A stretch of DNA of 64,000 nt, taken from the IMG/VR virus record IMGVR_UViG_3300045974_000132, positions 1 through 64,000 of that record; one strand, 5' to 3'. A program made the translations under genes and the position numbers. A model generated the notes under the pieces. It was not told where the DNA came from. It did no database searches and was given only the letters and a program-made list of their open reading frames with translations. Numbering within the stretch: position 1 is the first letter of the stretch; each line of letters begins with the position of its first letter. Shown here piece after piece: positions 1-31,219 of the stretch. Source of the stretch: a virus.

Positions 1-3000
1 GCAATGCAACCTACTATTGCATTCTCGTTTGCTCTTAATCTTCCGATCAACATCGTGCAATACATTGTTCAAGCTAAGGACAAAGTCAGCCTTGCTTCTT
101 TGAACGTATGGGCATCTGTTTGGGCATCTGCTATGATGAAGCCACCCGGTATTAAGGGTACGGGCTTGCAGACAAACAAGATTCCGCGTTACGTGCTTAT
201 GCCTTCTGCTTCTAGCTACCTATCTAAGAAGCGTGAAGAACTCGGCTTGTACTCAGAGCCAGGCCGTTCAAACAAAGACGGTATATATATCACTGAGCGC
301 GGTAACATTTCTTATCTGCCTAAGCAAACAGAAGCAGTAGAAGAGAATGCCAAGGCTTATGAGAAAGTTCTTGAAGACAGCTTGGCTCTAAGCTATGAGG
401 CAGGTACTCCTCTCATTACTAGCCAAGAAGGTAGTGCTGGTTCGATCTTCGATCTAGCTAGTCCTGAGTATAAGAGTAAGATCAGAATGACCAAGAGCCA
501 GTTACATGGCTTCAAGGGTTGTATGCAGACTTACAATTGGGACTTGAATTGCATTATCACGACTTCTGTTGTCAGCCCTGATCGTTTTGTTAGCCAGAAG
601 CTTGTGGGATGCTCTATTCCTGATGAACTAAACCTTGCCAACTACATGAGGACAGACTTCATGAAGGGCATGTGCAACATGTTCTCAGACTCTACGATTA
701 AAGAGGGTGCAAAGCGCATCAAGCCTGAGCCGAAGCACTTTGCTGATCTGCCTTCTGCTATTACCGATAGTTCCTTGTTCCTTAACTTCTCTCAAGCTTA
801 CAACATGCTTGAGAAGCGCAAACTTGTTCCTGGCTTGAAGGAACTAATCGACCGTTCAATGGCATCTTTGAAGCTCAAGTCACTCCGTGATGAAGAAGTT
901 TCCATGTTTGAAATTGATCGCTTCGATAGCAACAAGACTATTTACGGTAACTTCTTAAAGCCCGATCTTGGCTTTAGCTTAGTCGGTGACTCTGATGCAA
1001 ACAATGCGTCATTGCTTCTACCTAATACAGGTAAGACAATTCTGCACTACTTAACGGTTGTTGCAAATGATGCTCGCGCTCTGGGTAGAAGCAACCTAGC
1101 TGCTTACTGCATCAAGGAGAACGTTGATCCTGCTGATACGGGTCGCTTCTTTGACTCACAGACTCATGCAATCCATGAGTTTGAAAACCTATTTAAGTAT
1201 GTAGGTGGTCAAATATTCCTGCAAGCAATGAAAGCTATTGTTGCCGTATCGTCTAAAGACCTTATGACTATCGGGGAAGAAACTGATCCCAATGATAAGA
1301 ACTCTTTCGCAGGCTTCTCTGCGCTACAGTCAGAAGTTGTTCCGTTCTGCTTGATGTTTAGCAAATACGTTACCGACTTGAAGGAAGCTATCTTCAAGAA
1401 GGCTGAAGAGATTGAAGATACAAACAAGCATCCTAAAGTCTCTGAAGAAGAGTTGAACATTGCAGGTAGTCGTGCCCCGACTGCTAATCGTCCGGGTATG
1501 CAGTTGTTCCCGCACCAAGCAGAGTGTTTGGCAATTCTAAAGAACCATCCTCGCTTTGCAGTGCTTGACATTGCACCAGGTGGCGGGAAATGCCTTGTTG
1601 GAGATAGCTTAGTACCTACTTCTGACGGTATTCTTTCCTTGAAGGAAGTATACGCTCGTTCAGACGTTTCTACTAATAAGCGTGGTTTCCAAGAGTATAT
1701 TACATCTGTTGTATCTCACGAAAATCGTGTAGAGAAAACCGACTTTGCTTACTCAACCGTCGGTATTACGCATAAAGTAAAACTATCTGACGGTACTGTG
1801 ACGCAGGGTTTGCCTGAACATAAGCTATGGGCAGTACCTCTTACGTCTAATGCCCCTGAATTTATTAGGTTGGATAACTTACGTAAAGGAGATTGGCTGC
1901 CCAAAGCTTTAGGTACTGAACTCTATCCTAAGAAGACCCCTATTCTGTCTTTCAATGGACAAAAACATACTCTTACAGAAGAATTAGCTGAGATTTTAGG
2001 CTGGCTAGTGGCAGAAGGTTATGTAGTAAAAGACCGTTGTCACTTTGAACAACATAGTCCTGAAATGATGGCCCGTTATATAAACAAAGCAGAAACTTTG
2101 TTTGGTACAGGCTCCGTAGTTATACGTAAAGGTACGACGACCTCGGCTAAATTCTCAGAGAAAGCTGTGTTTGAATTTGTTCGAGACCTTATGACTTTAG
2201 GAACTTCTGCTTTCAAGGAAGTACCTTTGTGCATTCGTACTGCACCTAAGAAGTATCAACAAGCTTTCTTAAGGTCTCTATTTGAGGGTGACGCTAGTAT
2301 CTATCATGGAAGTCAAGGTAGAAACCAGAGTCGTATTTGGAAGTTTGAGTATTGTACAATAAGTAAGACACTTGTGCACCATGTAAAAGCAATGCTTGAC
2401 AACATGGGTATTCTCACTAGCTTAAAAACAGGCAACGCGTACAAGTCTAATGGGCACGATCACGTTAAACGTGTATATCGCTTGTTTATTAATTGGAGAG
2501 CACTGCCTAAGCTTGCACAAGAAATTGGTTTCCTTAGCACTGCTAAAACGTCTTTGCTAGAAGAAGCTGTTAGTCATGTGGAGTTCGTTTCAACCTCTGC
2601 GCAGCAAACTACAAATACTAAAGTAGGTAGTGCAGAAAATCGTATACCTGGCTACGAGCTAGCAACCTTTGTTAATCTTCGTATTCGTGAAGTTCTTAGC
2701 ACATACACGTATGAAGTACCTAAAACAAAGAACGGCGCAGGGGGCAGGACAGAACCTTGGTCTATTATGAAAGTAATGCGTGATGCAGAGCTAGGCCGTA
2801 AGTCACTACCCGCTTCGTACGGAAATGATGCTACAAATAAATACTCAGTTGAGCGCCTTTTCCGTATAATCGAAGGGGTGCCCAAGGAAGCTAAGAAGGA
2901 GCTGCTTTCTGACTATTATGTTGCACAAGCTATTGATTCCTTAAAATACTTTGTAGCCAACACTTGGGTACAGGTTAAGTCTTCACGCAAAGCAAAAGAA

Positions 3001-6000
3001 GAGCAGGTATATGATATTAGTGTACCGGGCCCGCACTCCTACGTAGTTAATGGCATATATGGCCATAACACGACCTTAGGTATTGCTGACATTTCAATGA
3101 CGTATGCTGACGGATTGATTAAGCGTCCGTTTATCATCTGCCCTAACGGTCTTGTAGGTAACTGGGCTGAAGATATTCACAAGCACATGGAAGGACGTTG
3201 GAACGTAATCCCAGTAACTACTGAGACTTACGGGGCTTGGGGTGATGAACGCCTTACTGAAATGATTAAGAGTGCTCCTACGAATACAGTAGTTGTCGTA
3301 GGTAATAGCTTCTTAGGCAATCGTGGCAAGTTCCAACTGATCTTAGGTAATGCTGTAGAGAACGTTTCTGATTCACTAGAGTTCTGCAAGAAGTTCCATC
3401 CGGATTATATCTTTATTGATGAATCCCATCGGATGCGCAACCTAGGCTCTGGTATTCATAAGATCGTTAAGTCTATGATGCAGATTAGTAGCGTAAAGTA
3501 TGGTCGTATCGGTACAGGTACTTTCATTCAGAACGTTCTGTCGGATGCTGTCGGTCAAACTGCTCTTTACAATGCTCAAGTCTTCCGTACTAAGGAAGAG
3601 TTTGATGCAAGCAACAAGGCTATGATTTCATCTATCGGTGGAGAAGATGTGTATGACTACACACCTGATGCTCCTGCTAAGGTGAAACGTCGTTTAAGTG
3701 AGTTTGCAACAATCATTTCTTACAAGCGTAAGGAATGGGCGTTCATGCTTCCGCTGCCTGTAGAAACGTTTATCTCTGTATCGTTTGATGATGCAGAAGA
3801 CCCTGAAATGGGTCGTGCCCATCGTATGTTCTACGATGCTGTACTGAAACAAACTATGGAAGAACTGAAGACTGACAAGGTACTTCAGAAACTTCTAAAG
3901 GGTAGCTCAGAAGACGACGAAGATGACGATGCTGATGATACGCCTGAAGGTAGCACTCCTGATAGCAAGGATGGAAAAGATCGCACTGTAACCACTGCTG
4001 AAGGTACTAAGATTGACGTTACTGACGGTGATGATGACAGTGATAATCTTGATAAGCTCGAAGCTGCTTTAAATCCTTACTTGCAACGGCTTGAGCGCAT
4101 CCTAACGGATCCGTTAGGTGATGAAGACTTAGCAGAAGTTGCTAAAGAGTTCTTCGGAGAAGCAACCCGTGATACTTTCGTAACACCTAAAGTCTCTAAG
4201 GTAATCGAACGTATCAAGAAGAACTTTGAAAGCAATGAGTGGCGTAAGGGCATGGATATTAAGTCCTCTGACATTGTTGATTTCAATGGCAAATCTTATA
4301 TCTTCAAGTCTGAAGAGCCCATGGGCAAGACAAAGACCAAGTCTCTTATTGCCCCTGACGAAGATACCGAAAACTGGAAACCTCAGTCTAAGGGTAAGGT
4401 ACTAGTCTTCTGTCGCTTTACTCGATCTGTCGATGCTATCTATCGTGCACTGCCTGCTGATCTGAAGAAGCAAGCTGTTGTATTCCATGGTGAAGTCGAA
4501 GGTAACAAGTGGGAGAATCTCGAAGCGTTCAAGAATGATCCTAAGATCAATATTCTGATCGCAAATGAAATGGGTATCTCTGAAGGGCACAATCTTCAGA
4601 TGGCTTCACGCTTCATTCGTGTTGAATCTCCTTGGGCACCGGGTGAGCTTGACCAGTCTTCATCGCGTATCTTCCGCCCTGACGTATCAGGTAAGTATGA
4701 ACGTCAAACAATCTTCCTTGATTGGATTATTTGTGACGGTACGCTAGAAGTTGCGAAGATGGGCCGACTGATTTCTAAGATGCTGCGGAAAGCACAGTTC
4801 GATGAACTGGACAATCCTAAATATTACAAGAATCTCAATCCTTTGAACTTGCCTGTTATTAAGATGTCCCTTGACAACATCAAGACATTGAACAAGATGG
4901 CCGATCTTTGTGCTATTGCAGGCGTAGGGGATACGAAAGAGCCTAATTCCAGTAGCTACATTGGGCAGTACGGTTATCTAGTAGGTGAAATGGCTGAAGA
5001 GTTTCGTGAAATGAAGAAGACGAAACGTGCTTACATGATTGATGTTAAGCCTACTCCGATGCCTGATGATGCTAAGGTGATTGAGTTCACACCGTGGGTG
5101 CCTAATATGAAGGTGCCTGATCGTCATGATGAAGGTTTGCTATCGCTCAAGGGTGTTCTACAAGAAGAGGATCATCCTCTGACTATTGCATTCAAGAAAG
5201 ATAAGCGTGCCTTAAACGGTCAGTTTGTCCGATGTGAGTTCGGCTTAGGTACTATCATAGGGGTATCAACTTCAAAGAATTCTTCTAGTGACGAGGATGA
5301 AGATCCCGGAGTATCTGTTAGTAAAGTGAAGATCGAACTTTCTCAGGGTGGTAAGGTTGAATCTTTGTCTGCTTCAAAGGTATATCTGGCAACTAAGATT
5401 ACCGAAAAGACAAAGAGCTCCATGAATAAGAAAGCTCCGAAGATCACGAAAGAAGATAAGGAACGCACTTCTGGTAATGCTAAGAAGGCTGAAGTCGCGC
5501 TTACTCGTGCTGCTAAACGTGAGAAGGACTTTGTCAAGAAGGTGGCTGATGTTAAGCGTAAGCCTAAAGCTGTTGAAGAGCCTGAAGACGCTTCAGAAGA
5601 AACGATGGACATTTCGTTGTATCCTGTAATCTACAACGAATTCTTGGCGCTGGAAGCAGTACCGGAAGATGCCACTGTATCTCTGAAGCAATACGGCTTT
5701 ACGAAGTTTGGCAACTATGCTTGGCTACCTGTTAAGACTTATGCCAACTTTACGAAAGTGTTGGAGTATATTGAATCGAAATATACCCTAGCTCCTAAGA
5801 CGATTAAGCTCCTAGATAGCTTGCACGATAGCTTCAATAGTGGTCGAGGTCGTAAGTTTGCTGTTGAGCTTGCACCTACTTCAATGCTTCCGCAGTTCTA
5901 TCGTCTCCGTCACACAATGACTGTGATTAAGGACAAGCGTAAGCCTGATCTGAAACTATACCCTGTCATCTTGAATGGTAGCTTGCTGTTGGTTGTAGAT

Positions 6001-6231
6001 ATTGCAACCAATCCTGTAATTCGTAAGATCCTGAACAAGACTATTGTGGGTACTTCACCTGCAGTCAAGTTCCAAGAAGCTGACGGTCTTGAGATTGAGT
6101 TCTTTGATCGTAAGTCTAGCTTGGTTAATAAGGTCAAGGAACTTCGTCAAGCAGGCTTCAATGTTATCAACATTGAGGAGTTGAAAGAAGAAGTGGGCTC
6201 GCTTAATCTGAAGCAAGTTTCAACCAAGTAA
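1..6231 (+). CDS. SNF2-like SF2 helicase containing an intein (5' partial)
   Basis: A very long helicase, probably used to remodel DNA or protein-DNA complexes during phage replication or transcription. The frame is open to the left edge, so the start is probably upstream; residues here are numbered from the Met at nt 4. Walker A (APGGGK-TT) spans residues 524-529 and 1023-1024 and is split by an intein (residues 530-1022). The DEAH-type motif II reads DESH at 1139-1142. An acidic linker lies near 1300-1345, and a helicase C-terminal domain with KVLVFCRFTRS and SSSRIFRP near 1463-1560. The roughly 520 residues before Walker A and 470 after motif VI are not recognised. The spliced product would be about 1580 residues. 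The SF2/SNF2 class is clear; the exact role is inferred. Confidence 0.85.
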   Translation, partial: AMQPTIAFSFALNLPINIVQYIVQAKDKVSLASLNVWASVWASAMMKPPGIKGTGLQTNKIPRYVLMPSASSYLSKKREELGLYSEPGRSNKDGIYITERGNISYLPKQTEAVEENAKAYEKVLEDSLALSYEAGTPLITSQEGSAGSIFDLASPEYKSKIRMTKSQLHGFKGCMQTYNWDLNCIITTSVVSPDRFVSQKLVGCSIPDELNLANYMRTDFMKGMCNMFSDSTIKEGAKRIKPEPKHFADLPSAITDSSLFLNFSQAYNMLEKRKLVPGLKELIDRSMASLKLKSLRDEEVSMFEIDRFDSNKTIYGNFLKPDLGFSLVGDSDANNASLLLPNTGKTILHYLTVVANDARALGRSNLAAYCIKENVDPADTGRFFDSQTHAIHEFENLFKYVGGQIFLQAMKAIVAVSSKDLMTIGEETDPNDKNSFAGFSALQSEVVPFCLMFSKYVTDLKEAIFKKAEEIEDTNKHPKVSEEELNIAGSRAPTANRPGMQLFPHQAECLAILKNHPRFAVLDIAPGGGKCLVGDSLVPTSDGILSLKEVYARSDVSTNKRGFQEYITSVVSHENRVEKTDFAYSTVGITHKVKLSDGTVTQGLPEHKLWAVPLTSNAPEFIRLDNLRKGDWLPKALGTELYPKKTPILSFNGQKHTLTEELAEILGWLVAEGYVVKDRCHFEQHSPEMMARYINKAETLFGTGSVVIRKGTTTSAKFSEKAVFEFVRDLMTLGTSAFKEVPLCIRTAPKKYQQAFLRSLFEGDASIYHGSQGRNQSRIWKFEYCTISKTLVHHVKAMLDNMGILTSLKTGNAYKSNGHDHVKRVYRLFINWRALPKLAQEIGFLSTAKTSLLEEAVSHVEFVSTSAQQTTNTKVGSAENRIPGYELATFVNLRIREVLSTYTYEVPKTKNGAGGRTEPWSIMKVMRDAELGRKSLPASYGNDATNKYSVERLFRIIEGVPKEAKKELLSDYYVAQAIDSLKYFVANTWVQVKSSRKAKEEQVYDISVPGPHSYVVNGIYGHNTTLGIADISMTYADGLIKRPFIICPNGLVGNWAEDIHKHMEGRWNVIPVTTETYGAWGDERLTEMIKSAPTNTVVVVGNSFLGNRGKFQLILGNAVENVSDSLEFCKKFHPDYIFIDESHRMRNLGSGIHKIVKSMMQISSVKYGRIGTGTFIQNVLSDAVGQTALYNAQVFRTKEEFDASNKAMISSIGGEDVYDYTPDAPAKVKRRLSEFATIISYKRKEWAFMLPLPVETFISVSFDDAEDPEMGRAHRMFYDAVLKQTMEELKTDKVLQKLLKGSSEDDEDDDADDTPEGSTPDSKDGKDRTVTTAEGTKIDVTDGDDDSDNLDKLEAALNPYLQRLERILTDPLGDEDLAEVAKEFFGEATRDTFVTPKVSKVIERIKKNFESNEWRKGMDIKSSDIVDFNGKSYIFKSEEPMGKTKTKSLIAPDEDTENWKPQSKGKVLVFCRFTRSVDAIYRALPADLKKQAVVFHGEVEGNKWENLEAFKNDPKINILIANEMGISEGHNLQMASRFIRVESPWAPGELDQSSSRIFRPDVSGKYERQTIFLDWIICDGTLEVAKMGRLISKMLRKAQFDELDNPKYYKNLNPLNLPVIKMSLDNIKTLNKMADLCAIAGVGDTKEPNSSSYIGQYGYLVGEMAEEFREMKKTKRAYMIDVKPTPMPDDAKVIEFTPWVPNMKVPDRHDEGLLSLKGVLQEEDHPLTIAFKKDKRALNGQFVRCEFGLGTIIGVSTSKNSSSDEDEDPGVSVSKVKIELSQGGKVESLSASKVYLATKITEKTKSSMNKKAPKITKEDKERTSGNAKKAEVALTRAAKREKDFVKKVADVKRKPKAVEEPEDASEETMDISLYPVIYNEFLALEAVPEDATVSLKQYGFTKFGNYAWLPVKTYANFTKVLEYIESKYTLAPKTIKLLDSLHDSFNSGRGRKFAVELAPTSMLPQFYRLRHTMTVIKDKRKPDLKLYPVILNGSLLLVVDIATNPVIRKILNKTIVGTSPAVKFQEADGLEIEFFDRKSSLVNKVKELRQAGFNVINIEELKEEVGSLNLKQVSTK
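1591..3069 (+). mobile_element. Intein with LAGLIDADG homing endonuclease, in helicase Walker A
   Basis: A self-splicing protein element of 493 residues. It begins with Cys (CLVGDS) and ends in the canonical His-Asn (VVNGIYGHN); the first downstream extein residue is Thr, which can act as the second nucleophile. A block B-like segment (TQGLPEHKLW) follows the N-terminal splicing block. Two LAGLIDADG-type helices, LAEILGWLVAEGY (protein residues 661-673) and FLRSLFEGDA (755-764), mark a homing endonuclease between the splicing halves. Insertion directly after the Walker A lysine is typical of inteins, which favour conserved catalytic motifs. Both splice-junction residues and both endonuclease motifs look intact, so it is probably active. 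The boundaries are clear because the flanking helicase motif rejoins perfectly. Confidence 0.93.
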
Positions 6232-10500: not shown

Positions 10501-10682
10501 GTAAGGCCAAGATTGCAGCAGGTGAGAAAGCAATGGAAGACGTTAAGTTTGTCAAGGGTGACGAACAGAAGAAGGATGCCACTAAAGCTGCTCAAGGTAA
10601 GATTGCAGAAGGCAAAGATACTGTTGAATATGCTCGTGAGTTGATGGACTATCATAAACAATTTTTGAATAGAGGCGAATGA
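7563..10682 (+). CDS. Family A DNA polymerase with 3'-5' exonuclease
   Basis: The phage replicative polymerase, 1039 residues, longer than a usual PolA core. The N-terminal ~210 residues resemble a uracil-DNA-glycosylase-like fold (VLFVLDVMPTED, YVVAFGTSVMQALL), seen in some phage polymerases; this part is tentative. The exonuclease has Exo I WDTEAK (D242, E244), Exo II NAKFDL (D312) and Exo III YCTLDV (D399). Polymerase motif A is VDYRVHEVRGW (D638, E643), motif B is RNAVKGIIFGLIYG (R709, K713, Y721) and motif C is VHDSLENE (D847). Motif A differs from the textbook DYSQIELR, and motif C has HDS instead of HDE, but the metal-binding aspartates remain. The Lys/Ala-rich C-terminal ~90 residues are an extension. 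The QueE gene overlaps its stop (ATGA). Confidence 0.93.
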   Translation: MKHTNFDYDLTRFEADDEYSYVKLAYENNGDKKVLFVLDVMPTEDLHSGKLLSGQTGDLLNVLVATTRRLYAKQAPSFSWLAVTFNAFRTFGKPSEYRAQAEQAFSERVKCLITKYQPDYVVAFGTSVMQALLEDKIVTDGKGKTRFSYWLGVPVKKDIKYKKKVHTTTIVSTLSLNDIVRGDDAEVSLLGYMCRNLSAVYGRHYCVDVDRLHNHKTIMVNTVAKFDKLMAVLREKPYVSWDTEAKNLHKVTNRLLTVQAAFDIDKGYLIPIYHKDTPFTPDELNYIVETLQDYFEGNNNNDYHIYVNAKFDLTLMRAECGIRYFANDVWDILAGEFMLDENLKSLMTVLGEYYYSLGNLSVQYGFDGYITAEFSKQHRANFEATDLSDPAVQHYCTLDVVVPLSIHLQQKERAKYIKYAKYEQVVRNEASDTIHAFSKMEYTGAGLDVPYLFYLKTVDSPIELEIKKMAGALLKTDAVKKTNLLLCKAQGMPTGSLFTGVETVAAFKLNKPDHKKKLFFEVLGLEPLEKGAGGVGKLDKGFQKAYAHIPEVAQYTALEKAKKLKNAYVKSFINMLGSSEDLQKDHRIRPNYGYLGVVTHRGSASDPNLQQVPAHSALGKHIKRLFVAREGTLYIKVDYRVHEVRGWGLISFDKAVAAVFAAAKKLRDEYRLHPTAELAKRLKTEADVHIQNASYFFNVAMEKVDKPLRNAVKGIIFGLIYGMGMKTLAKNIGQTDDFTKTLVDNFAKRFPKAMAWTKNVKKFAAENLFVEAPTGIRRNLFGYLLPSSFESAGQMAARMDRQAGNAPIQGMCSKFMMNGIRILDWLIFKEIKKNKNFMLFITNSVHDSLENEAGYANFLKSLAMIEWALTDGVKNKVKKRYGFDLVSNLEIDFEIGATLSQCEGWDFSIAQLETLVMDSLIFQRNKLQRNIVPDRIMKVIFSDRAVTEDAPEWMQKQISNLNYSFELTERSYIKRMLDEGKAKIAAGEKAMEDVKFVKGDEQKKDATKAAQGKIAEGKDTVEYARELMDYHKQFLNRGE

Positions 10683-11587
10683 TGAATCTTCAACAAGTAC
10701 CTAAAGATGATCCTACTGCTAAGAAAGCAGAAGTTTTGTTTGCAGGCAGGGTTCGCGTAAGTGAGACATTTCTATCACTTGAGGGAGAAGGGCCTTACAC
10801 TGGATACCCAACTCTTTTTATAAGATTTTTCGGCTGCAACTTTACTTGCTCAGGCTTAGGAACAAAAGAGCCTGCAACTGCTAAAGTTAATGCTTTGAAG
10901 TATGCAAGCCCTGAGACACGCGAAGACTTGTCCAAGTATCAGTTCACGACAGGTTGTGATAGCGCATACTCTTGGGATCCTGCGTTCAAGCACCTTACCG
11001 TAGATCACACTGTTGAGACATTGGCAAAAGCAATCCTTCAGCACATTGAAGGCAAGTATATGATTACTAAGCCTATTCTGTGCTTCACAGGTGGCGAGCC
11101 TATGCTGTATCAAAAATACTTTGGTGCAATATGGGAACTGGTAAAAGAGAAATTCTCGTTTATCTTGATTGAGACAAACGCTTCGATTAAAGCTACCAAC
11201 GAGCTATGGCGAGGACTAGAAGACGCAGGTAATCCAAATTTAGTTTGGAGTCTTAGTCCGAAACTTTCAAACTCTGGTGAGCCTCGTAATAAAGCAATTT
11301 CAAAAGAAGTTGTTGATTCCTACTACGGTCAGAAGTATTGGAAGTTTGTATCAGACGGTAGTGAAGAATCTTTGGTAGAGATACGTCAAGCTCTTGATAC
11401 TTACTCAGGTGGGCATACTACTTACGCCAATGAAGCATGGGCCAAAACGTGGCTGATGCCTGAAGGTGCTTCGCTAGAACAGCAAAATGAAATGCAGCGT
11501 AAGGTAGCCGCCCTATGTTTGAAGTATGGCATTAAGTTCTGTGCACGTGTCCATGTATGGATATGGAAGAATGAAATAGGTACTTGA
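10679..11587 (+). CDS. queE: QueE-like 7-carboxy-7-deazaguanine synthase (radical SAM)
   Basis: A radical-SAM enzyme expected to convert carboxytetrahydropterin to 7-carboxy-7-deazaguanine in the preQ0 route. It shows LSLEGEGPYTGYPTLFIRF (a QueE hallmark), the cluster cysteines C53 and C57 in FFGCNFTC, and a third in TTGCDSAYSW (C93). The SAM-binding CFTGGEPML and ETNAS follow, then WSLSPKLS. In the simplest QueE proteins the third cysteine is only three residues after the second; here about 35 residues intervene, similar in principle to QueE forms with an expanded cluster loop. It overlaps the polymerase by 4 nt. With FolE and QueD at 19.5-21 kb it suggests deazaguanine modification of phage DNA. 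Confidence 0.88.
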   Translation: MMNLQQVPKDDPTAKKAEVLFAGRVRVSETFLSLEGEGPYTGYPTLFIRFFGCNFTCSGLGTKEPATAKVNALKYASPETREDLSKYQFTTGCDSAYSWDPAFKHLTVDHTVETLAKAILQHIEGKYMITKPILCFTGGEPMLYQKYFGAIWELVKEKFSFILIETNASIKATNELWRGLEDAGNPNLVWSLSPKLSNSGEPRNKAISKEVVDSYYGQKYWKFVSDGSEESLVEIRQALDTYSGGHTTYANEAWAKTWLMPEGASLEQQNEMQRKVAALCLKYGIKFCARVHVWIWKNEIGT

Positions 11588-18172: not shown

Positions 18173-18792
18173 TGGAAAAACTAATACTAAAACATTTGCC
18201 TAGAGAACGGGAGAAAGTTCTCACAGCAAGAGGGGTACCGCAAGCTGACTTCATTCACGGTAAGGAGCAATATGATGTTGTTCCTAATTTAGTTAAGTAT
18301 GAAGTAGAACTTGCACGTATGCCTACTAGGGCAGTAGGTACTGCAAAGCAACTGAAAGCACTAGAGTCTATCTGTACAAATCCTTTACGTTCAAGTTACG
18401 TGTTGGGTATTAGTAGCTTTCCTAGTGATGCTCTTGCAAAAGCTCTTGCAATCCATATATTCAATCAATCAATGATTTCATGGCAACGAAGGCATCGTCC
18501 AGGTAGAGTACTTCCTATTTGGCATCGTGTATTCGGAGGCTTCAATGATAATCTTCGTGACAAGCCTATTGAAGAAACACCTAGCTTGTTGGTGTTATCG
18601 AATATCAATGAAGCAAGTAGCTCCTACAAGCTTGAGAAGGTGCGAGACATATTGGAGAAGTATTCTCATATACCGCGCATTGTTGTTTTAAGCGGAGCCG
18701 ACCCTTTGACATTCTTTGCAAACAAATTGTACTGCCCTATCAATGCAGGTATATTGATTGGCCCTACAAATCGTGTTAAGGAAATGGGATGA
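18172..18792 (+). CDS. Degenerate AAA-like protein, possible helicase-loader relative
   Basis: A 206-residue protein. The centre can be read as a worn P-loop domain: SSYVLGISSFPSDALAKALA lies where a Walker A would be but lacks GKT. Then SLLVLSNINEASSS lies where Walker B would be but lacks the usual aspartates, followed by IPRIVVLSGADPLTFF, like a sensor strand. DnaC/IstB-like loaders have this order. If that reading is right, it no longer hydrolyses ATP and would act as a structural partner. It sits directly behind the DEAH helicase (TAATG overlap). The assignment is weak; a novel fold is equally possible. Confidence 0.4.
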   Translation: MEKLILKHLPREREKVLTARGVPQADFIHGKEQYDVVPNLVKYEVELARMPTRAVGTAKQLKALESICTNPLRSSYVLGISSFPSDALAKALAIHIFNQSMISWQRRHRPGRVLPIWHRVFGGFNDNLRDKPIEETPSLLVLSNINEASSSYKLEKVRDILEKYSHIPRIVVLSGADPLTFFANKLYCPINAGILIGPTNRVKEMG

Positions 18793-19019
18793 CAGACGTT
18801 GACAACTTTCTTAAAGACGTTGCAAAGCAAGGTAGGCTCAAGGAGTTTACGGTAGTGTGTGATGAATCCAATAACACACCTGAAGATATAGATCAACGTA
18901 GGCTTAATGTAGATGTTATTTTTTACGGTTCTTTAGCTGAACACGTTCGCAAGCGGTTGGAAGAATCTACTGATAGGACTGCATCGTATGGCTGCCATAC
19001 CACCGAAGACAAAGTATAA
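18789..19019 (+). CDS. Small protein resembling the tail-sheath C-terminal domain
   Basis: A 76-residue protein starting in an ATGA overlap. Residues 6-55 line up by eye with the C-terminal part of the sheath gene at 24580-26274: here FTVVCDESNNTPEDID, there FQVICDDSNNTSDTIA, followed in both by a strand with Leu-x-x-Asp and a basic helix or strand (HVRKRL here, RIHLRA there). The sheath C-terminal domain makes inter-subunit contacts in contractile tails. A stand-alone copy within the replication region is unusual; it might bind sheath or a sheath-like partner. The likeness was seen by eye only. Confidence 0.5.
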   Translation: MTDVDNFLKDVAKQGRLKEFTVVCDESNNTPEDIDQRRLNVDVIFYGSLAEHVRKRLEESTDRTASYGCHTTEDKV

Positions 19020-19494
19020 TGCTTTAGTCTTAGACTTCGACGGTGCTCTATTCCCACGAAGATTCTTTTTAACTCCGACGGGTGCTGATCCTGTATTGGT
19101 ACAAGTAATAAATACATTGTGCCAACACTATGATTTCCGAATCGTTATCTCAGCAGGCATGCAAGAACAAGGTATAGATAAGTGTAAAGAAGAGTTAAGC
19201 AAAGCAGGTATTAGTGCAGACTATGTTATGCCTAATAACTGGTCGACTCTAAGCGTAGGCTTTCATATACGCGACCGATACAAGCAGGTTGAACGCTGGT
19301 ACGATCAGTATAAAGATTCAATTGGTAGGATGTTGATCTTTGATGATGAACATTGCCCATTCCAATCGCCTATAGCTGCTTACTGGATGAGGTGTGATGA
19401 AGAACACGGATTACGCTTATTCGATCTTACTACTCTGTACGGTGAATACTCAAAATTAATGGAACATAAAGAAGACATAAATGAAAACAAGTGA
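18988..19494 (+). CDS. HAD-like phosphatase/hydrolase
   Basis: A 168-residue protein with HAD-superfamily motifs: motif I LVLDFDGALF (D16, D18), motif II IVISAG (S55) and motif IV LIFDDE (D119, D120). A lysine for motif III is not certain. The nucleophile and acid/base aspartates are present, so it is probably an active small phosphatase or related enzyme acting on nucleotides or nucleic-acid ends; the substrate is unknown. The gene overlaps the sheath-C-like gene by about 30 nt and overlaps folE by 14 nt, placing it in the deazaguanine gene group. Confidence 0.7.
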   Translation: MAAIPPKTKYNALVLDFDGALFPRRFFLTPTGADPVLVQVINTLCQHYDFRIVISAGMQEQGIDKCKEELSKAGISADYVMPNNWSTLSVGFHIRDRYKQVERWYDQYKDSIGRMLIFDDEHCPFQSPIAAYWMRCDEEHGLRLFDLTTLYGEYSKLMEHKEDINENK

Positions 19495-20143
19495 TATTGT
19501 AAGGCAGCGTATTCTGGAAGCTAATGCTCCTTTCTTTGCAAATGACAACATCGCAAGCTTTGTAACGCCCGAAGAGTTGGCTGGTATTCAAGAAGAAGTT
19601 GAATTTCATATGGACAATCTACTTCGAGCTTTGGTAATCGACGTTGATAACGACCATAACTCGAACGGAACTGCCAAGCGCGTAGCAAAGATGTTTGTGC
19701 GCGAGTTCTACAAAGGCCGTTACGTTGAAATGCCTAACGTTACTGTCTTTCCTAATGCTAAGAAGATTGACCAACTGTATATCGTTGGCCCTGTTAGCGT
19801 TAAGAGTACGTGCAGCCATCATCTAGTACCTATCGTAGGTAAGGTATGGGTCGGTTGCATTCCGGGCGACGATCTAAGCGGCTTATCGAAGTTTGCTCGT
19901 TTAGCTGAATGGATTTTTCGTCGTCCTCAAATTCAAGAAGAAGCTACCCAACAGTTGGCAGAACTTCTTGAAGAGATTCTCAAGCCTAAAGCTTTAGCTC
20001 TCATTGTCAAAGCACAACATATGTGTATGTGCCATCGTGGTGTAGAAGACCCGGACAGTGAGCATACAACCAGTTACATGGGTGGTGCCTTTAAGCAAGA
20101 TCCGGCACTGCGTATGGAATTCTTGACACTGATGAACAAATGA
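19481..20143 (+). CDS. folE: GTP cyclohydrolase I
   Basis: Converts GTP to 7,8-dihydroneopterin triphosphate, the first step of the deazaguanine (preQ0) and folate routes. The 220-residue length matches bacterial FolE. Family motifs are clear: zinc ligands C111 and H114 in STCSHHLVPI and C182 in HMCMCHRGV, the GLSKFAR segment (134-140), and RRPQIQEEAT (147-156). All key residues are present, so it is probably active. It is followed by the QueD-like gene in an ATGA overlap; with QueE at 10.7 kb it supplies precursor for a modified guanine in phage DNA. Confidence 0.95.
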   Translation: MKTSDIVRQRILEANAPFFANDNIASFVTPEELAGIQEEVEFHMDNLLRALVIDVDNDHNSNGTAKRVAKMFVREFYKGRYVEMPNVTVFPNAKKIDQLYIVGPVSVKSTCSHHLVPIVGKVWVGCIPGDDLSGLSKFARLAEWIFRRPQIQEEATQQLAELLEEILKPKALALIVKAQHMCMCHRGVEDPDSEHTTSYMGGAFKQDPALRMEFLTLMNK

Positions 20144-21075
20144 TTAGCACACTCACACTGCCGTATTTGACTTGTATTGACCATGCTTACGTGGATGATA
20201 TTGGACGTATTCGTGGTCGTTCATACCATGCTTCCTTCACAGTATCGGGTAAGGTTGATGAAGAAGGTGAGAAGGTTGTTGTAGACTTCTCTAAGGTAAA
20301 GAAGCTCATTAAGTCGATTGTCGATGACCATGAGTACGGATTCGACCACAAGCTTTGGGTTGATTCTAATTGCAAAGAAGATGCAAACCCTAGAATTGCT
20401 ACACCCTTTGCACTTCTAAATATTCCAGAGAATGCAATACGCTCTTTCCCTAAAGCTACACATGTACATGCTTCTTCGGCGTGTTTTATCATAGCCCAGC
20501 ATGTACAGGATGTTCTGCTAAATGTTCACGGTATTGAGGTAGACATTAAGTGTGCCCTAAATACCAGCCCTCTGTTTATTCAAGCAGGTGGTGTCTACGG
20601 AATGTTTAGCTACGTTCATGGCCTGCGCGATAGTTCAGCATACGGTTGTCAGAATCTAGCACATGGACATCTTAGTTATCTGCAATTGATTCCTAAGGTG
20701 GACATTATTCGCATGGTCGTTGATCCTGTTCATTGTGCTGATGAAGATAATGCTTTAACAGCCCTTGATAAAGTATGCAATGAAATCTGCAAAGACCTGG
20801 ACGATACGATTTTCATATACGGTGCTAATGTTTGGACAGCAAGCACTGACGAGGTGTCTATTGCTTATACTTCCAAGTCACGCGGATCTATGGGCGGTAA
20901 GTTCAAGAATAACGAGCGTCAAAAGACGGTAGTTCTTGAAACAGAAACTACTGTTGAATACCTTGCAGAATATATCAATGCTAAGTATGGTGAGCTTTTA
21001 CGTGAAGCCGGCGTTGATAAGTTTATCGTAAGTGAGGGCCTTTCTAAGGGTGTTCTGTTTGAAGTAACGTCTTAA
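20140..21075 (+). CDS. queD: QueD-like 6-carboxytetrahydropterin synthase, double-length
   Basis: Expected to act between FolE and QueE. At 311 residues it is about twice the usual QueD length and reads as two T-fold modules. The first half has RGRSYHASFTVSG, VVVDFSKVKKLI and FDHKLW (68-73), matching the QueD middle, but the zinc HxH is RGR. The second half has H160, C170 and HGH at 175-177 (YGCQNLAHGHLSY), matching the QueD zinc site and catalytic cysteine, and ends with ETETTVEYLAEYI, like the QueD glutamate helix. The active-site residues are thus divided between halves. The family is well supported; whether it is catalytically standard is not. Confidence 0.75.
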   Translation: MISTLTLPYLTCIDHAYVDDIGRIRGRSYHASFTVSGKVDEEGEKVVVDFSKVKKLIKSIVDDHEYGFDHKLWVDSNCKEDANPRIATPFALLNIPENAIRSFPKATHVHASSACFIIAQHVQDVLLNVHGIEVDIKCALNTSPLFIQAGGVYGMFSYVHGLRDSSAYGCQNLAHGHLSYLQLIPKVDIIRMVVDPVHCADEDNALTALDKVCNEICKDLDDTIFIYGANVWTASTDEVSIAYTSKSRGSMGGKFKNNERQKTVVLETETTVEYLAEYINAKYGELLREAGVDKFIVSEGLSKGVLFEVTS

Positions 21076-21087
21076 GGACATTTCAAA

Positions 21088-21633
21088 ATGGAAATATCAA
21101 GACGCGGGTTTCTAAAGCTATTTGCTACGCTACCCGCTGCTTTTGCTGTAACGCAACTAACACCAGCGTTTGCTAAAATCCCGGACTTAACGCCGATAGT
21201 CGTTCCAGAGACCAAAGAAGACTTTGGATTCTTTGATATATCGGACATTGAGATTAGGTTCTCTGACTTTCGCGTGTATGCTTCGTCTATGAATGTTGTT
21301 CATAATCATGGACCATCCTTCAGAACGCCCTATGAAGTTGTATCGGACGAACGTGGCCAATACTTATACTCAGAACTGCGAATACAAACTACTTCCCTAA
21401 CGGGTAGATGCTTTGCCAATCTAGGTGATAAGCTAAGAACTTGGTTTGAAGCGGCTAGGAATATGGGTCCTCCTGACTCTTATAAGAAAGATGCTGAAAT
21501 CTGGTATAAGGGTGAGCGTATTGCTACCTTAAAAGGCGCCTTCCTTAAGTCAATAGAAGCTCAAATGTTCGGTAATCTGATGAACTTTGATTTTACAATG
21601 AGCTATGATGTGTTGGAACATTTAAATGGATAA
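21088..21633 (+). CDS. Tat-signal protein with a tail-tube-like mature domain
   Basis: A 181-residue protein with a textbook twin-arginine signal: SRRGFLK at residues 4-10, a hydrophobic stretch (LFATLPAAFAVTQL) and an AFA cleavage site before K30. This predicts folded export across the inner membrane by the Tat system, very unusual for a phage. The mature part ends with RIATLKGAFLKSIEAQMFG then LMNFDFTMSYDVLEH. This resembles, by eye, the C-terminal strands of T4-like tail-tube proteins (a KGxxP-type turn followed by an x-F-x-x-T-x-x-Y-D strand). It follows queD by 12 nt with a weak AAGGAC ribosome site. The signal call is strong; the tube likeness is tentative. Confidence 0.7.
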   Translation: MEISRRGFLKLFATLPAAFAVTQLTPAFAKIPDLTPIVVPETKEDFGFFDISDIEIRFSDFRVYASSMNVVHNHGPSFRTPYEVVSDERGQYLYSELRIQTTSLTGRCFANLGDKLRTWFEAARNMGPPDSYKKDAEIWYKGERIATLKGAFLKSIEAQMFGNLMNFDFTMSYDVLEHLNG

Positions 21634-22189
21634 CAAACATTACGGTCTAATTGGGGCCCACCGCGTAGGTAAGACGACTTCTGCTCAGAAGTTTGCAGTA
21701 TCACCTCATATAGCCTACTTACAGATTGATACCAATGCAATCTTTGTAGAGCTTGGCTTCAATCCTAAAGATCAATACGATATTGAAACACGATTGACCA
21801 TCCAAGAGCAATTGATTGAGCGTGTAGAACCTCAGTATCGGGATAACAGTTGCAGCATAACAGATCGTACTCCGATAGACTTCTTGATCTACATGCTTGC
21901 GGATGTTACGCGTGACTTTCCTTCACGCTTGGAAGAACGTTTTGCTGCATATCAAAAGCGGTGCATTGATATGTACTTCCAGTACTTCCAACGAGGTTGT
22001 GTTATACAGCCAGGTATCCCGATAATTGATGTTGCAAAGTCGGCTCCACCTAGTGTTGCTTACATAGCACACCTAAATCATATCGCTGTTGGGCTGGCTA
22101 ACGCTCTCAACATTGATGTAATGCCGATTCATATTCTTGATCTTGAAGAACGTGATGAATATCTAACTGCAATCTTTCTTCCTTATTAA
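21626..22189 (+). CDS. P-loop kinase-like ATPase
   Basis: A 187-residue protein with Walker A GAHRVGKTTSA at residues 10-20 and a likely acceptor region ITDRTPIDFLIYML where a DR-type motif binds nucleotide substrate. This layout resembles AAA_28/dNMP-kinase-like phage proteins that phosphorylate nucleotides. A clear lid arginine pair is not assigned; YQKRCIDMYF may contribute. It overlaps the Tat-signal gene by 8 nt. It may make modified or unmodified dNTP precursors, which would fit the nearby deazaguanine genes; this link is inference. Confidence 0.7.
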   Translation: MDNKHYGLIGAHRVGKTTSAQKFAVSPHIAYLQIDTNAIFVELGFNPKDQYDIETRLTIQEQLIERVEPQYRDNSCSITDRTPIDFLIYMLADVTRDFPSRLEERFAAYQKRCIDMYFQYFQRGCVIQPGIPIIDVAKSAPPSVAYIAHLNHIAVGLANALNIDVMPIHILDLEERDEYLTAIFLPY

Positions 22190-23801: not shown

Positions 23802-24122
23802 ATGGTAGAGGTCTTCAAAGGCCTTACGCAAGAATATAAAGAAATGCTGATGACTCGTTTTAATCCCGAGAGGATTGACGAAGAGTTTAGCCCACATGAA
23901 GTAAGGTTGATTATATTCTTTAACGATTCGCGGGACAGGCAGATTCATTCGCCGGATTTAAGATTTATTTTGTCTGCTCACTTTTCCAATTTTGGCTTTT
24001 TTATACCGTCAGGTAACTCCGTTCTTATTTCGTTTAGATTGAATCCTAAATTTAATAAGTATGATGAACAAGACCTTAGTAAAAAACTTAGTGGGAAAGG
24101 GGCGGGGTATTGTAGCAGTTAA
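23802..24122 (+). CDS. Small unknown protein
   Basis: A 106-residue protein I do not recognise. The open frame begins at 23748, but the ATG at 23802 has GGGAG 7 nt upstream and follows the preceding stop by one base, so it is preferred. The sequence is mixed, with LIIFFNDSRDRQ and FGFFIPSGNSVLISFRL beta segments. The 3' end overlaps the SET gene by 62 nt in another frame. Confidence 0.6.
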   Translation: MVEVFKGLTQEYKEMLMTRFNPERIDEEFSPHEVRLIIFFNDSRDRQIHSPDLRFILSAHFSNFGFFIPSGNSVLISFRLNPKFNKYDEQDLSKKLSGKGAGYCSS

Positions 24123-24426
24123 ACGAATTGTAAAAGGCTCCTTGATTGAGTCTTGTCCGGTTGCTCTGTTCTCAGTACCCTTAGGCAGTACTCACATACT
24201 AGAGACATACGCCTTTAGGTGGTCAAAGAATAAAGTAGCTATTGCCTTAGGGAACGGTAGCTTATACAATCACAGTTATACACCCAATGCGGAATACACT
24301 AAAGATATAAAGAATAAGGTATTACTGGTGTATGCTTTAAGAACCATCCTACCGGGTGAAGAAATATGTTTCAACTACAACGGGCATCCAGATAATAAGG
24401 CACCGTTGTGGTTTAAAGTAAAATGA
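24061..24426 (+). CDS. SET-domain protein, putative lysine methyltransferase
   Basis: A stand-alone SET domain of 121 residues, close to the size of the Chlorella virus vSET enzyme (119). The start shows GKGRGIVAVKRIVKG (12-26), the classic GxG-containing N-SET strand. The core cofactor motif is NHSYTPNA (70-77), and the C-terminal GEEICFNYNG (99-108) supplies the catalytic-tyrosine region. All SET landmarks are present, so S-adenosylmethionine-dependent protein lysine methylation is probable; the target could be a host or phage protein. It is the last gene before a strong terminator. SET genes are rare in tailed phages. Confidence 0.85.
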   Translation: MMNKTLVKNLVGKGRGIVAVKRIVKGSLIESCPVALFSVPLGSTHILETYAFRWSKNKVAIALGNGSLYNHSYTPNAEYTKDIKNKVLLVYALRTILPGEEICFNYNGHPDNKAPLWFKVK

Positions 24427-24579: not shown

Positions 24580-26274
24580 ATGGGTCTTCCATCCTCCCCA
24601 GGTAGTTATGTGATAGAGCGTGATCTATCACAGCGAGTTCGTGCTGTATCCACATCAATCGGTGCTATCGTCGGAGCCTCCAAGAAGGGCCCGATAATGA
24701 CACCTACACTGGTTACAAACAAACAAGAATTTATTGAGACATTCGGACCTCCCGATTGGCGTTTTAGCTTGATGCACTATGCGGCTCTAAAGTTTCTTGA
24801 GAATAGTAGCCAGCTATTAGTTACACGGGTCATCAATGATGATACCAATCACGGCCCTGTGCCGTTAACAGCCGGAGCTTTCTACTCTGTAGATTCAGTT
24901 ACGGCTGTAGCACCGCGTCCTACTCTGTCAGTATTTGACGATGCTAACGGTAATACTCTGGGTAAGTTTGATCCGTTCAATACGTATTCATTCAACCCAA
25001 ATCAACCGGGTATTGCAAACGTCTTATTCTTCATATGTGCTGTCGATCCGGGTGACTGGAATAACACTCTATACATTGAAGTACGCCCAGCTTACAAGGC
25101 AGGCTTGTCTTCATTCGATGAAACATATGATGATCCGTATTCATTCTGGATTGATGTATATGTTAATCATGACAACCCGCGTGATAAGCCTGTTGAGTCA
25201 TGGCTTGTAAAGCGCAACTCAGAGATTAACGGTTTCGGCAATCAGATGTTCATGGAAGATGTTATCAATAAAGCTTCCAAGTATATTCGTGTTCGCAATA
25301 ATGAGTTTGCTCCTACAACTGTTAAGGTTGTAGAACCTGCTAAGGTATTCCTTGAAGGTGGCACTAACGGTCACTATCTAGCTTTCGGTCAAGTAATGAG
25401 AGCATGGGATCTTTATAAGGATACTGAGCATATCAATGTCAATATCTTGATTCAAGGTGGTGCTCCGATCGGCATGAGCAACTTGCAAGATATTTGCGAC
25501 ATCCAACGTAAAATGGCAATCATTGCTGAAGAACGTATGGATGCTGTTGCGATTCTTGACATCCCTTCACCGGAACAAGAAACTGCCCGTGCTGTTGCAT
25601 ATGCTGTTCAAGAGCTAAACCTTGATAGTAGCTATGCTGCCATCTATACTTGTGACATACGAGTACCGGATGTGTACAACGACATGGAAGTCTGGGTTCC
25701 GCCTTCTGGTTATGTTGCTGCAAACTGTGCATTGACTGACGAACAATATGAAGTCTGGTTCTCACCGGCTGGTATGTATCGTGGTCGCATGGATGAAGTC
25801 AACAAATCAAAATACATTTACAACCAAGGTCATCGAGACGCCCTCGACTACGTAAATGTTAACGCTATTCGTTATTTCCCTAAAGGCCAAGGCTGGCGTA
25901 TTTGGGGATCGAATACCCTACAGAGTATGGCGTCTGCTCTGTCGGATCTGAATGTTCGTCGTCTGATGAACTTCATTGAAAAGTCCGTACGCATTGCCAA
26001 TATGTATAGCGTGTTTGACCCGAATGACCAAATTCTTCGTAGTCGGGTTACATCAATCATTGAACGTTTCTTATCTCCAATTAAGAACGCCGGTGGTCTA
26101 TATTGGTTCCAAGTTATTTGTGATGACAGCAATAACACAAGCGACACCATTGCAGCAGGCATTCTTGTTATTGATGCTTACTTCGATCCCGTTATTACTG
26201 CAAAACGAATTCATCTTCGTGCCAACTTAATGGCAACCGGCGCTGACTTTAAGTCCTATCTTATCAATAAATAA
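24580..26274 (+). CDS. Tail sheath protein
   Basis: The contractile sheath subunit, 564 residues, within the usual range. The start (SPGSYVIERDLSQRVRAVST then IGAIVGASKKGP) is the typical sheath N-terminal strand and GASKKGP turn. The middle has NIQRKMA-type helices and DAVAILDIPSP, where the subtilisin-like sheath domain lies. The C-terminal part has RGRMDEVNKSKYIYNQGHRD then YFPKGQGWRIWGSNTL and QVICDDSNNTSDTI, the hallmark sheath core and hand-shake domain. GGAG precedes the ATG. It identifies the phage as a myovirus. The tail-tube gene that usually follows is absent here; fibre genes follow instead. Confidence 0.95.
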   Translation: MGLPSSPGSYVIERDLSQRVRAVSTSIGAIVGASKKGPIMTPTLVTNKQEFIETFGPPDWRFSLMHYAALKFLENSSQLLVTRVINDDTNHGPVPLTAGAFYSVDSVTAVAPRPTLSVFDDANGNTLGKFDPFNTYSFNPNQPGIANVLFFICAVDPGDWNNTLYIEVRPAYKAGLSSFDETYDDPYSFWIDVYVNHDNPRDKPVESWLVKRNSEINGFGNQMFMEDVINKASKYIRVRNNEFAPTTVKVVEPAKVFLEGGTNGHYLAFGQVMRAWDLYKDTEHINVNILIQGGAPIGMSNLQDICDIQRKMAIIAEERMDAVAILDIPSPEQETARAVAYAVQELNLDSSYAAIYTCDIRVPDVYNDMEVWVPPSGYVAANCALTDEQYEVWFSPAGMYRGRMDEVNKSKYIYNQGHRDALDYVNVNAIRYFPKGQGWRIWGSNTLQSMASALSDLNVRRLMNFIEKSVRIANMYSVFDPNDQILRSRVTSIIERFLSPIKNAGGLYWFQVICDDSNNTSDTIAAGILVIDAYFDPVITAKRIHLRANLMATGADFKSYLINK

Positions 26275-28333: not shown

Positions 28334-31219
28334 ATGCCTATTGCAATTGCCTCTTATTTCATCCCACGCGCAGGTAATAGCTACGCTCTGATGGAAGACG
28401 TATATATTAAGGGCGGCTTCCGTATCGTATCAGACGTTAATGCGCGTAACGCTATTGATGCGTCTGCTCTTAAAGAAGGTATGTGGGTTGTTACTCGTGT
28501 GGATGGTAAAGTCTATACACTAGGTAGCGATCTTGTAACATGGACTGAAAAGTCCTTTGCTGGTAATATTGGTCCTGTAGGTCCCACTGGCCTTCAAGGG
28601 GTTGCGGGTACTCAAGGCCTACCTGGCGTTGCTGGACCGATGGGACCTACTGGTTACACTGGTCAGCAAGGCTACACGGGTGCTCAAGGTAATACTGGGC
28701 CCGTCGGCCCCACTGGTACTACAGGAACTACTGGTAGCACTGGACCCGTCGGTCCTACAGGTGCTCAAGGGGCAACTGGTGCCAATGGTTATACTGGTCC
28801 CGTCGGGCCTACGGGTTCCGGCGGCCCTCAGGGGGCAACTGGTTCTCAGGGTGACTTAGGTCCGATTGGTCCCACAGGTAGTCAGGGTATCAAGGGTGAC
28901 ACTGGCTCAACAGGCAGTACTGGACCCGTCGGTCCTACTGGTATCCAAGGTGACTTAGGCCCTGTTGGACCTACTGGTCTTCAAGGCAGTACAGGCTTAA
29001 CGGGTTCTCCTGGAGATACAGGTCCTGTCGGTCCTACTGGCTTTCAGGGTGATACAGGTCCCGTTGGTCCTACTGGATTCCAAGGCGTCCAAGGCAATCT
29101 AGGGCCTGTCGGGCCTACTGGCCCACAGGGTGTTCAAGGTATCCAAGGTAATGCTGGTGTTGTCGGAGATACAGGTCCGATTGGTCCCACAGGTATCCAA
29201 GGTGAATTAGGTCCCGTTGGGCCTACTGGTACTCAGGGTATCAAGGGTGACTTAGGGGATGCTGGCCCTGTTGGTCCTACTGGCGCAACTGGTGCTAAGG
29301 GTGACTCAGGCACGGGTATAGTCTATCAAGGCATATGGGCTGCAGGTGAGTATGCTGCTGACTCTTCTGTTCTGGCCCCATCTAGTGCTAATCCTGCTGT
29401 AAACTCTATCTGGATTTTAGCTAGTGCAAGTTCATACAACTCTACCTTAGAGCCTTCTTCTGATCTTACTCATTGGGTTGAATATACTTCTGTTCAAGGC
29501 CCAGCTGGTGTAGACGGTGCACCTGGCGTTGCTGGTCCTGTAGGCCCTACAGGGGTTGCTGGATCTGTTGGCGCAACTGGTTCAACTGGACCCGTCGGTC
29601 CTACTGGTCTTCAAGGCTTAACAGGTCCCGTTGGTCCTACTGGAGCTATAGGTCTTCAAGGTGTCCAGGGTGTTCAAGGTATTGATGGTCCTGTCGGTCC
29701 TACTGGTAGTGAAGGTACTCAAGGTAGTACTGGCCCAATTGGACCTACGGGTACTCAAGGTGCAACAGGCAGCACTGGTAGTGTAGGGCCCGTCGGACCC
29801 ACCGGACAACAAGGTACTACAGGCCTAACCGGTCCTGTCGGTCCTACTGGTGTTCAAGGCAATATCGGTCTTACAGGAACTACTGGTGATACAGGCCCGA
29901 TCGGCCCGACAGGCCCACAGGGTGCCACTGGGCCTGCTGGCCCCACAGGAGTTCAGGGTAATACAGGTATCCAAGGTGTCGTCGGCCCCGTTGGGCCTAC
30001 TGGTGTTCAAGGCACTGCTGGTGATGTCGGTCCTGTTGGACCTACTGGTAGCATAGGTCTTACTGGACCAGTCGGACCCACAGGTGTTCAAGGCGTTGCA
30101 GGTACTGACGGCTTAACAGGTCCCGTTGGTCCTACTGGTACGCAAGGTAGTACGGGTGTTGCAGGGCCCGTTGGCCCAACAGGTGTTGCAGGATCCGCTG
30201 GCCCTGTGGGTCCCACAGGTGTTCAAGGTAGTACAGGGGTTACTGGTAGTGTCGGTCCTGTTGGACCTACTGGTAATGCTGGAGCAGCAGGCTCAACTGG
30301 CCCCGTAGGACCAACTGGCGTCGCAGGTAGCCTAGGTCCTGTAGGCCCAACAGGTAGTCAGGGTGTTGCAGGTACTACTGGAACTACAGGTAGTACTGGA
30401 CCAGTAGGCCCAACAGGCGTTGCTGGTTCAACTGGCCCTGTTGGACCTACTGGTCTTCAAGGCCTTGCTGGTAGTACTGGTCCCGTCGGCCCTACAGGCC
30501 TTCAAGGAACCACAGGTAATACGGGTGCCACTGGTAATACGGGGCCTGTAGGTCCTACTGGAAACACAGGTAGTATCGGTTTAACAGGTCCTGTAGGTCC
30601 CACTGGCACTCAAGGTGCTACGGGTACTACAGGTAGCGTTGGCCCCGCTGGACCTACAGGCCCACAGGGTACTTCTTCTTTGTGGCGTGAAGGTGCTGTT
30701 GTTCCTGCAAGCGGCTTAGGTGTTGACAACGATCTATACTTGAATACTGCAACTTCTGACGTATATCAGAAGCAATCAGGTGCTTGGGCATTGGTCGCAA
30801 ACATTAAGGGTGCTCAGGGTGCTAGTTATGATCCTAACACTACTATCTTGTCACTGCCCTACGACATTTCGATGTTCGTCTATGGTAACATGGATGCTGC
30901 TAGTACAACTGTTGCTGAGTTTGTTGCACCGCGTAAGATTTCGTTGAAACAGAACTTAACAGGAAGCTTGGCTTACGCGAAGTCTGCCCCGTCGAATTCT
31001 GTCTCATACGCAATCAATGTTAACGGTGTCAATAAGGGTAGCGTAAACTTCGGTATCGGTTCTACTATAGGTACTTTCACATGGGCAACAGGCTTAAACT
31101 TGCTAGTGGGTGATCTCCTTGAAATCGTTACTCCTGCTTCAGTAGAACCTGCTATCGCAAACGTAACAATTTGTTTAGTGGGTGTAGCACAAGCTCCTAA
31201 CACTGCCATGCTTCCTTAA
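28334..31219 (+). CDS. Large collagen-like tail fibre protein
   Basis: A 961-residue fibre. Residues 1-75 are an attachment-type domain ([25 protein letters not shown]) shared with the genes at 31239 and 35357. Residues ~77-327 and ~389-780 are collagen-like Gly-x-y repeats in which GPVGPTG recurs; a non-collagenous insert (residues ~328-388) interrupts them. The C-terminal ~180 residues are a globular receptor-binding-like domain ending in NVTICLVG. Collagen repeats form a trimeric rod. GAGAGAA precedes the ATG. The threonine-rich GPTG pattern is typical of phage collagens. Its host receptor is unknown. Confidence 0.9.
28562..29316 (+). repeat. Collagen-like repeat block 1
   Basis: DNA encoding Gly-x-y triplets with the recurring heptapeptide GPVGPTG, in many synonymous codon forms. 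Such sequence can expand or contract by slippage and recombination. Confidence 0.9.
29498..30672 (+). repeat. Collagen-like repeat block 2
   Basis: A second and longer run of Gly-x-y triplets built on GPVGPTG, separated from block 1 by about 60 non-collagenous residues. It ends just before the globular C-terminal domain ([15 protein letters not shown]). Confidence 0.9.

Follow-up and report, generated by a model that had tools for sequence, protein, structure and literature searches.

The jumbo phage studied here, whose record is 286,393 bases long, carries two genes predicted to encode proteins with twin-arginine translocation (Tat) leaders, and in at least one of them the leader is joined to a rearranged piece of a contractile tail. 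The first gene (ORF 21088) lies in the window, the 64,000-nucleotide stretch formed by bases 1–64,000 of the record. The second, which we refer to as the sister, lies some 200 kb away. The product of ORF 21088 is, by its sequence, a Tat-substrate candidate with putative tail tube and exclusion roles. Considering the two proteins together, we tentatively favor, with somewhat less than even confidence, a reading in which both are tail-derived accessory proteins that would act in the periplasm against the tubes of incoming contractile phages, that is, in superinfection exclusion. The coordinates of the features discussed are given in Table 1.

Table 1. Features of ORF 21088, its neighborhood, the sister ORF and the tail genes (window coordinates unless another record is named).
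Feature	Coordinates	Strand	Remarks
ORF under study	21088–21633	+	181 aa
Ribosome-binding-site-like AAGGA	21074–21078	+	ATG 9 nt downstream; read directly
Predicted Tat signal peptide	21088–21174	+	Codons 1–29, MEISRRGFLKLFATLPAAFAVTQLTPAFA; cleavage predicted after A29
Mature domain	21175–21630	+	Residues 30–181; possible tube-type fold, last 95 residues
QueE-like gene	10679–11587		By eye; 7-deazaguanine candidate
GTP cyclohydrolase gene	19481–20143		7-deazaguanine candidate
QueD/PTPS-like gene, upstream of ORF 21088	20140–21075	+	Pfam PF01242 above cut-off; 7-deazaguanine candidate
P-loop kinase-like gene, downstream of ORF 21088	21626–22189	+	PHROG thymidylate kinase, 1.6e-06
Free-standing tail-sheath C-terminal domain fragment, no leader	18789–19019	+	76 aa; PHROG 5e-10; 42 bits vs sheath profile
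Second full-length tail sheath paralogue	24580–26274	+	PHROG tail sheath, 1.6e-92
Two virion tube genes	88670–89239 and 89313–89870 of the record		Beside sheath 1
Tail sheath 1	90771–92360 of the record		Adjoins the two true tube genes
Second Tat ORF (sister)	222482–223387 of the record (= L012:2482–3387)		301 aa; outside the window; begins MKLTRRGFLKLSGSMFLAAVPIPAFCE...
Leaderless sheath C-domain	L290:1508–2074		188 aa; closest near-complete relative
Leaderless sheath C-domain	L163:2288–2707		139 aa; PaBG-like phage
Leaderless sheath C-domain	L291:885–1283		132 aa; Erwinia jumbo phage

The initial annotation had described a complete Tat export signal at the N-terminus of the 21088 protein, and this was borne out. 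Read directly, the leader has the full [ST]RRGFLK motif, a neutral hydrophobic core and an AxA site, with predicted cleavage at AFA↓K leaving KIPDL as the mature start. The signal models were divided, as the NCBIfam Tat signal model TIGR01409 passed its cut-off (16.9 vs 16.7) and the shorter Pfam model TAT_signal scored 14.6, under its cut-off of 22.7. From residue frequencies, 0.004 ORFs of the genome would be expected to show [ST]RRxFLK no more than 20 residues from the start, and two were observed, far over chance. These are the same two, ORF 21088 and the sister, that we judged to have plausible Tat leaders among the 1246 ORFs of at least 50 aa scanned in the record; the remaining regular-expression matches were short, antisense or lacked motif context. 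A DNA pattern for an N-terminal RRxF[LF]K leader found none in about 55 related phage records, the pattern being confined to common F, L, K and R codons and requiring FL or FF before K, such that weaker leaders could escape it. On these sequence features we regard the leader of the 21088 protein as genuine, and export of this predicted substrate by the Tat pathway as likely.

The frame of ORF 21088 extends upstream by just four codons (which would give 185 aa), codon usage is in favor of the frame, and the ORF overlaps the downstream P-loop kinase-like gene by eight bases. Nucleotide-metabolism genes surround it, and the second sheath gene follows 3 kb downstream. Together, the QueE-like gene, the GTP cyclohydrolase gene and the QueD/PTPS-like gene point to a possible pathway for modification of DNA with 7-deazaguanine. 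Elsewhere in the window we noted a 2075-aa helicase-like ORF (4–6231) with, by eye, an apparent intein in its P-loop (GGGK-CLVGDS ... GHN-TTLG), a 961-aa protein (28334–31219) in which tail-type ends flank long collagen-like GPVGPTG repeats, and a small protein (24061–24426) resembling, by eye, SET-domain methyltransferases.

By its sheath and tube genes the phage was placed in the neighborhood of PaBG and NCTB, jumbo phages that have two sheaths, a trait that is itself already known (PMC7412058). Two tube genes of its own lie beside sheath 1, so ORF 21088 is not needed as a virion tube. Its gene lies outside the tail module and is not adjacent to a sheath gene as a main tube gene would be. 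The 21088 protein is not the virion tube.

The sister protein is where the evidence for an exported tail-like domain is strongest. Its leader (MKLTRRGFLKLSGSMFLAAVPIPAFCE...) scored 15.3 with TIGR01409, slightly under the cut-off of 16.7, and behind it the protein contains a Phage_sheath_1C domain (PF17482) at 27.5 bits against a cut-off of 26.9, with a PHROG sheath match of 7e-13. The core of this domain is 42–52% identical to the sheaths of T4-like phages and 29–33% identical to the phage's own. A sheath profile that we constructed matched the sister protein in two places, with profile positions 261–320 falling on sister residues 70–129 (65.9 bits) and positions 175–227 on residues 223–272 (11.8 bits). 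The second match, although lower, scored higher than any of 150 shuffles or 120 background proteins. The usual sheath architecture, a subtilisin-like domain and then the C-terminal domain, is therefore swapped, and by the order of the two matches the protein is a circularly permuted mini-sheath: behind the Tat leader comes the C-terminal sheath domain and then the segment that normally precedes it. Prokaryote genomes scanned with the sister protein returned sheath C-domain matches and nothing else. Whatever its function, the joining of a Tat leader to a circularly permuted tail-sheath domain in one phage protein has no counterpart in the searchable literature.

Free-standing sheath C-domains that have no leader are found in this phage and in relatives (Table 1), indicating that sheath fragments are a recurrent accessory in these jumbo phages. 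Among the phages compared, the addition of a Tat leader to such a fragment is observed in the 286-kb phage only.

Whether the mature part of the 21088 protein is tube-like, as had also been proposed in the initial annotation, is more evenly balanced. No Pfam or PHROG tube family matched the protein, PF06841 included, and hmmsearch with three tube profiles gave nothing significant. Profile–profile comparison by hhalign was more favorable. Against the phage's own tubes and those of close relatives, 62 C-terminal columns aligned with P 0.04 (rank 10 of 201 background proteins), and a broad mixed tube set placed the protein just 18th of 201. With a tube family of 62 members the values were P 0.02 and rank 1 of 201, and with one of 46 members P 0.0064 and rank 2 of 201 (0 of 100 shuffles). 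Both of these deep families and the earlier run aligned the protein in one register, in which the W, Y and D columns conserved in tubes are found; the region concerned comprises a helix with W118, YKK at 131–133 and a last strand with YD at 172–173. Compared with the genome's own ORFs, the 21088 protein came fourth against the second of the deep families, behind the two tubes and one chance match, and some non-tubes in the hhalign background score as it does. A Smith–Waterman tube Z of 3.7 was set aside as not decisive because the best background matches were dNMP-kinase-like and antisense ORFs.

AlphaFold2 run without an alignment gave a pLDDT of 43 and an unusable fold, and the thioredoxins that Foldseek returned for it (E 0.3) were discarded as meaningless. 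When run with a tube alignment, the pLDDT rose to 57 overall and up to 76 C-terminally, and Foldseek listed tubes, contractile injection system (CIS) tubes and Hcp; we counted this model as weak support since its alignment presupposes the answer. Together, the profile comparisons and the guided model give a tube-type fold for the mature part about an even chance, and its identity as a tail tube is suggestive. The export of a tail-like domain thus gained strong independent support from the second Tat ORF and its clear sheath domain, while the tube assignment made for ORF 21088 itself stood in part, on hhalign and the guided model but not on HMMER or the family databases.

Searches of phages, plasmids, IMG/VR peptide patterns, 31 related records and 36 further records identified no homologue of the 21088 protein, and the gene is missing from the syntenic relatives L002, PaBG and NCTB. 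Exclusion and other accessory genes are usually missing from relatives, and the distribution of ORF 21088 fits a gene of that kind. PHROG 38026, a family with no assigned function, had an E value of 0.005 with the protein and no match in 37 other viral records tested. A 181-aa ORF near the GTP cyclohydrolase gene of the closest near-complete relative (L293:2991–3536) looked alike by eye and was rejected as it scored at chance. PADLOC returned no defense-family match.

The proposed shielding role can be set out as follows. The Tat pathway exports proteins in a folded state. When a contractile tail fires, its tube enters the periplasm without the sheath, after crossing the outer membrane, and in the intact tail it is the inner layer of the sheath, largely the C-terminal domain, that touches the tube. 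The host Tat pathway would deliver the folded 21088 protein to the periplasm, and the permuted mini-sheath would be exported likewise. There, the naked tube of an incoming contractile phage would meet a sheath-type domain, which could coat it by way of the surface normally bound by sheath, and the tube-type 21088 protein could stack onto the tube's end. Coating or capping would then prevent contact with the inner membrane and so DNA entry. As the sheath does not itself enter the periplasm, any activity of a sheath domain in that compartment presupposes an affinity for the tube. The sister domain resembles T4-like sheaths more closely than it does those of the phage itself, in keeping with a target on some other phage. 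The two genes are far apart, and joint action is not required. We infer both the binding of either protein to incoming tubes and the exclusion function of the pair. If the proposal is correct, parts of a tail have been converted to exported shields, and the tail tube itself would be the point at which exclusion operates, maybe broadly against contractile phages and related machines.

A possible, if doubtful, alternative is that the 21088 protein is Tat-exported with a mature domain that is not a tube, its likeness to tubes being due to chance; it would act in the envelope, where its target might for instance be peptidoglycan, a receptor or one of the host's periplasmic proteins, and only the sister would be tail-derived. 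The silence of HMMER, Pfam and PHROG on a tube, the uninformative unbiased fold and the non-tubes with similar hhalign scores all point this way; against it, the scores climb with deeper tube families while the register stays constant, and the sister Tat protein is tail-derived. It is improbable, but somewhat less so than the two readings considered below, that the leaders are uncleaved or inefficient and that both proteins, as inner-membrane or cytoplasmic fragments, regulate tail assembly by limiting the polymerization of sheath and tube, whether those of the phage itself or those of a rival. Leaderless sheath C-domain fragments do recur in the phage and its relatives, and a prophage protein that blocks rival tail assembly, Tab, is known (PMC10884400), but two complete Tat leaders with cleavage sites would be pointless in the cytoplasm.

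The remaining readings have still less to recommend them. Shielding of the infected cell from the type VI secretion systems (T6SS) or tailocins of other bacteria, through binding of their tubes in the periplasm, would draw on the tube and sheath folds common to phage tails, CIS and T6SS, and on the Hcp and CIS tubes in the Foldseek list for the biased 21088 model; we consider it quite improbable, the nearest relatives of the sister's sheath domain being the sheaths of T4-like phages. Least probable of all is a minor virion component with its N-terminus in the membrane at DNA entry or release, for which the tail-like mature domains and the nearby second sheath gene might speak, but which sits poorly with a gene located among nucleotide-metabolism genes and lacking from the syntenic relatives.

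A broader form of the shielding proposal, in which Tat export is a general route by which folded virion-derived domains are deployed as periplasmic decoys against incoming virions, the decoys of this phage being a permuted sheath and a tube, we regard as unlikely. The whole viral collection was scanned with two DNA patterns encoding M-x-x-[ST]-RRGFLK, which cover some arginine codons only; 22 stretches were returned, about a dozen of which are ORFs with plausible Tat leaders. One of these, a 124-aa ORF on the minus strand (L304:3924–4295), has a portal-like segment behind its Tat leader (E 0.007 with the Pfam portal family, E 0.009 with PHROG) and lies antisense where a cluster of head genes ends. 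Another, in L297, has a weak likeness to a cyanophage structural protein (E 0.1). Virion-like mature parts behind Tat leaders on other viral contigs are, on these sequence matches, a lead. Most of the mature parts had no match in Pfam or PHROG, and a capsid-protein likeness seen by eye in L314 was unsupported on checking. Besides L304, viral-contig ORFs that begin M-x-x-[ST]-RRGF[LF]K and have plausible Tat leaders were noted in L296, L297, L301, L306, L307, L309, L310, L313, L314 and L316, those of L306 and L313 appearing to be one family.

Among known systems, the contractile sheaths are among the closest to the sister, which shares their PF17482 domain above cut-off, at the identity to T4-like sheaths given above, and differs from them in its Tat leader, its length (a third to a half of the usual) and its permuted segments. 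Tubes of the gp19 type (PF06841, phrog_45) and the 21088 protein have, from the alignment, a similar order of strands and helix and the conserved W, Y and D, whereas the 21088 protein has no HMMER match to them, bears a Tat leader and is encoded outside the tail module. Tab resembles the proposed role of the 21088 protein in being an accessory phage protein aimed at another phage's tail; it differs in working through the tape measure pathway, at assembly rather than at entry, and in having no Tat leader described in the accessible part of its report (PMC10884400). A functional precedent would be Spackle (gp61.3) of T4, a periplasmic superinfection-exclusion protein that binds a component of the incoming tail, the gp5 lysozyme (PMC7677548). 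Spackle and the 21088 protein are both small, phage-encoded and equipped with a cleavable export signal, predicted in the latter, as would be expected of a periplasmic exclusion protein. Spackle, however, is all-helical and not tail-derived, whereas in the phage described here the signal is of the Tat type and the sister protein carries a tail-sheath domain.
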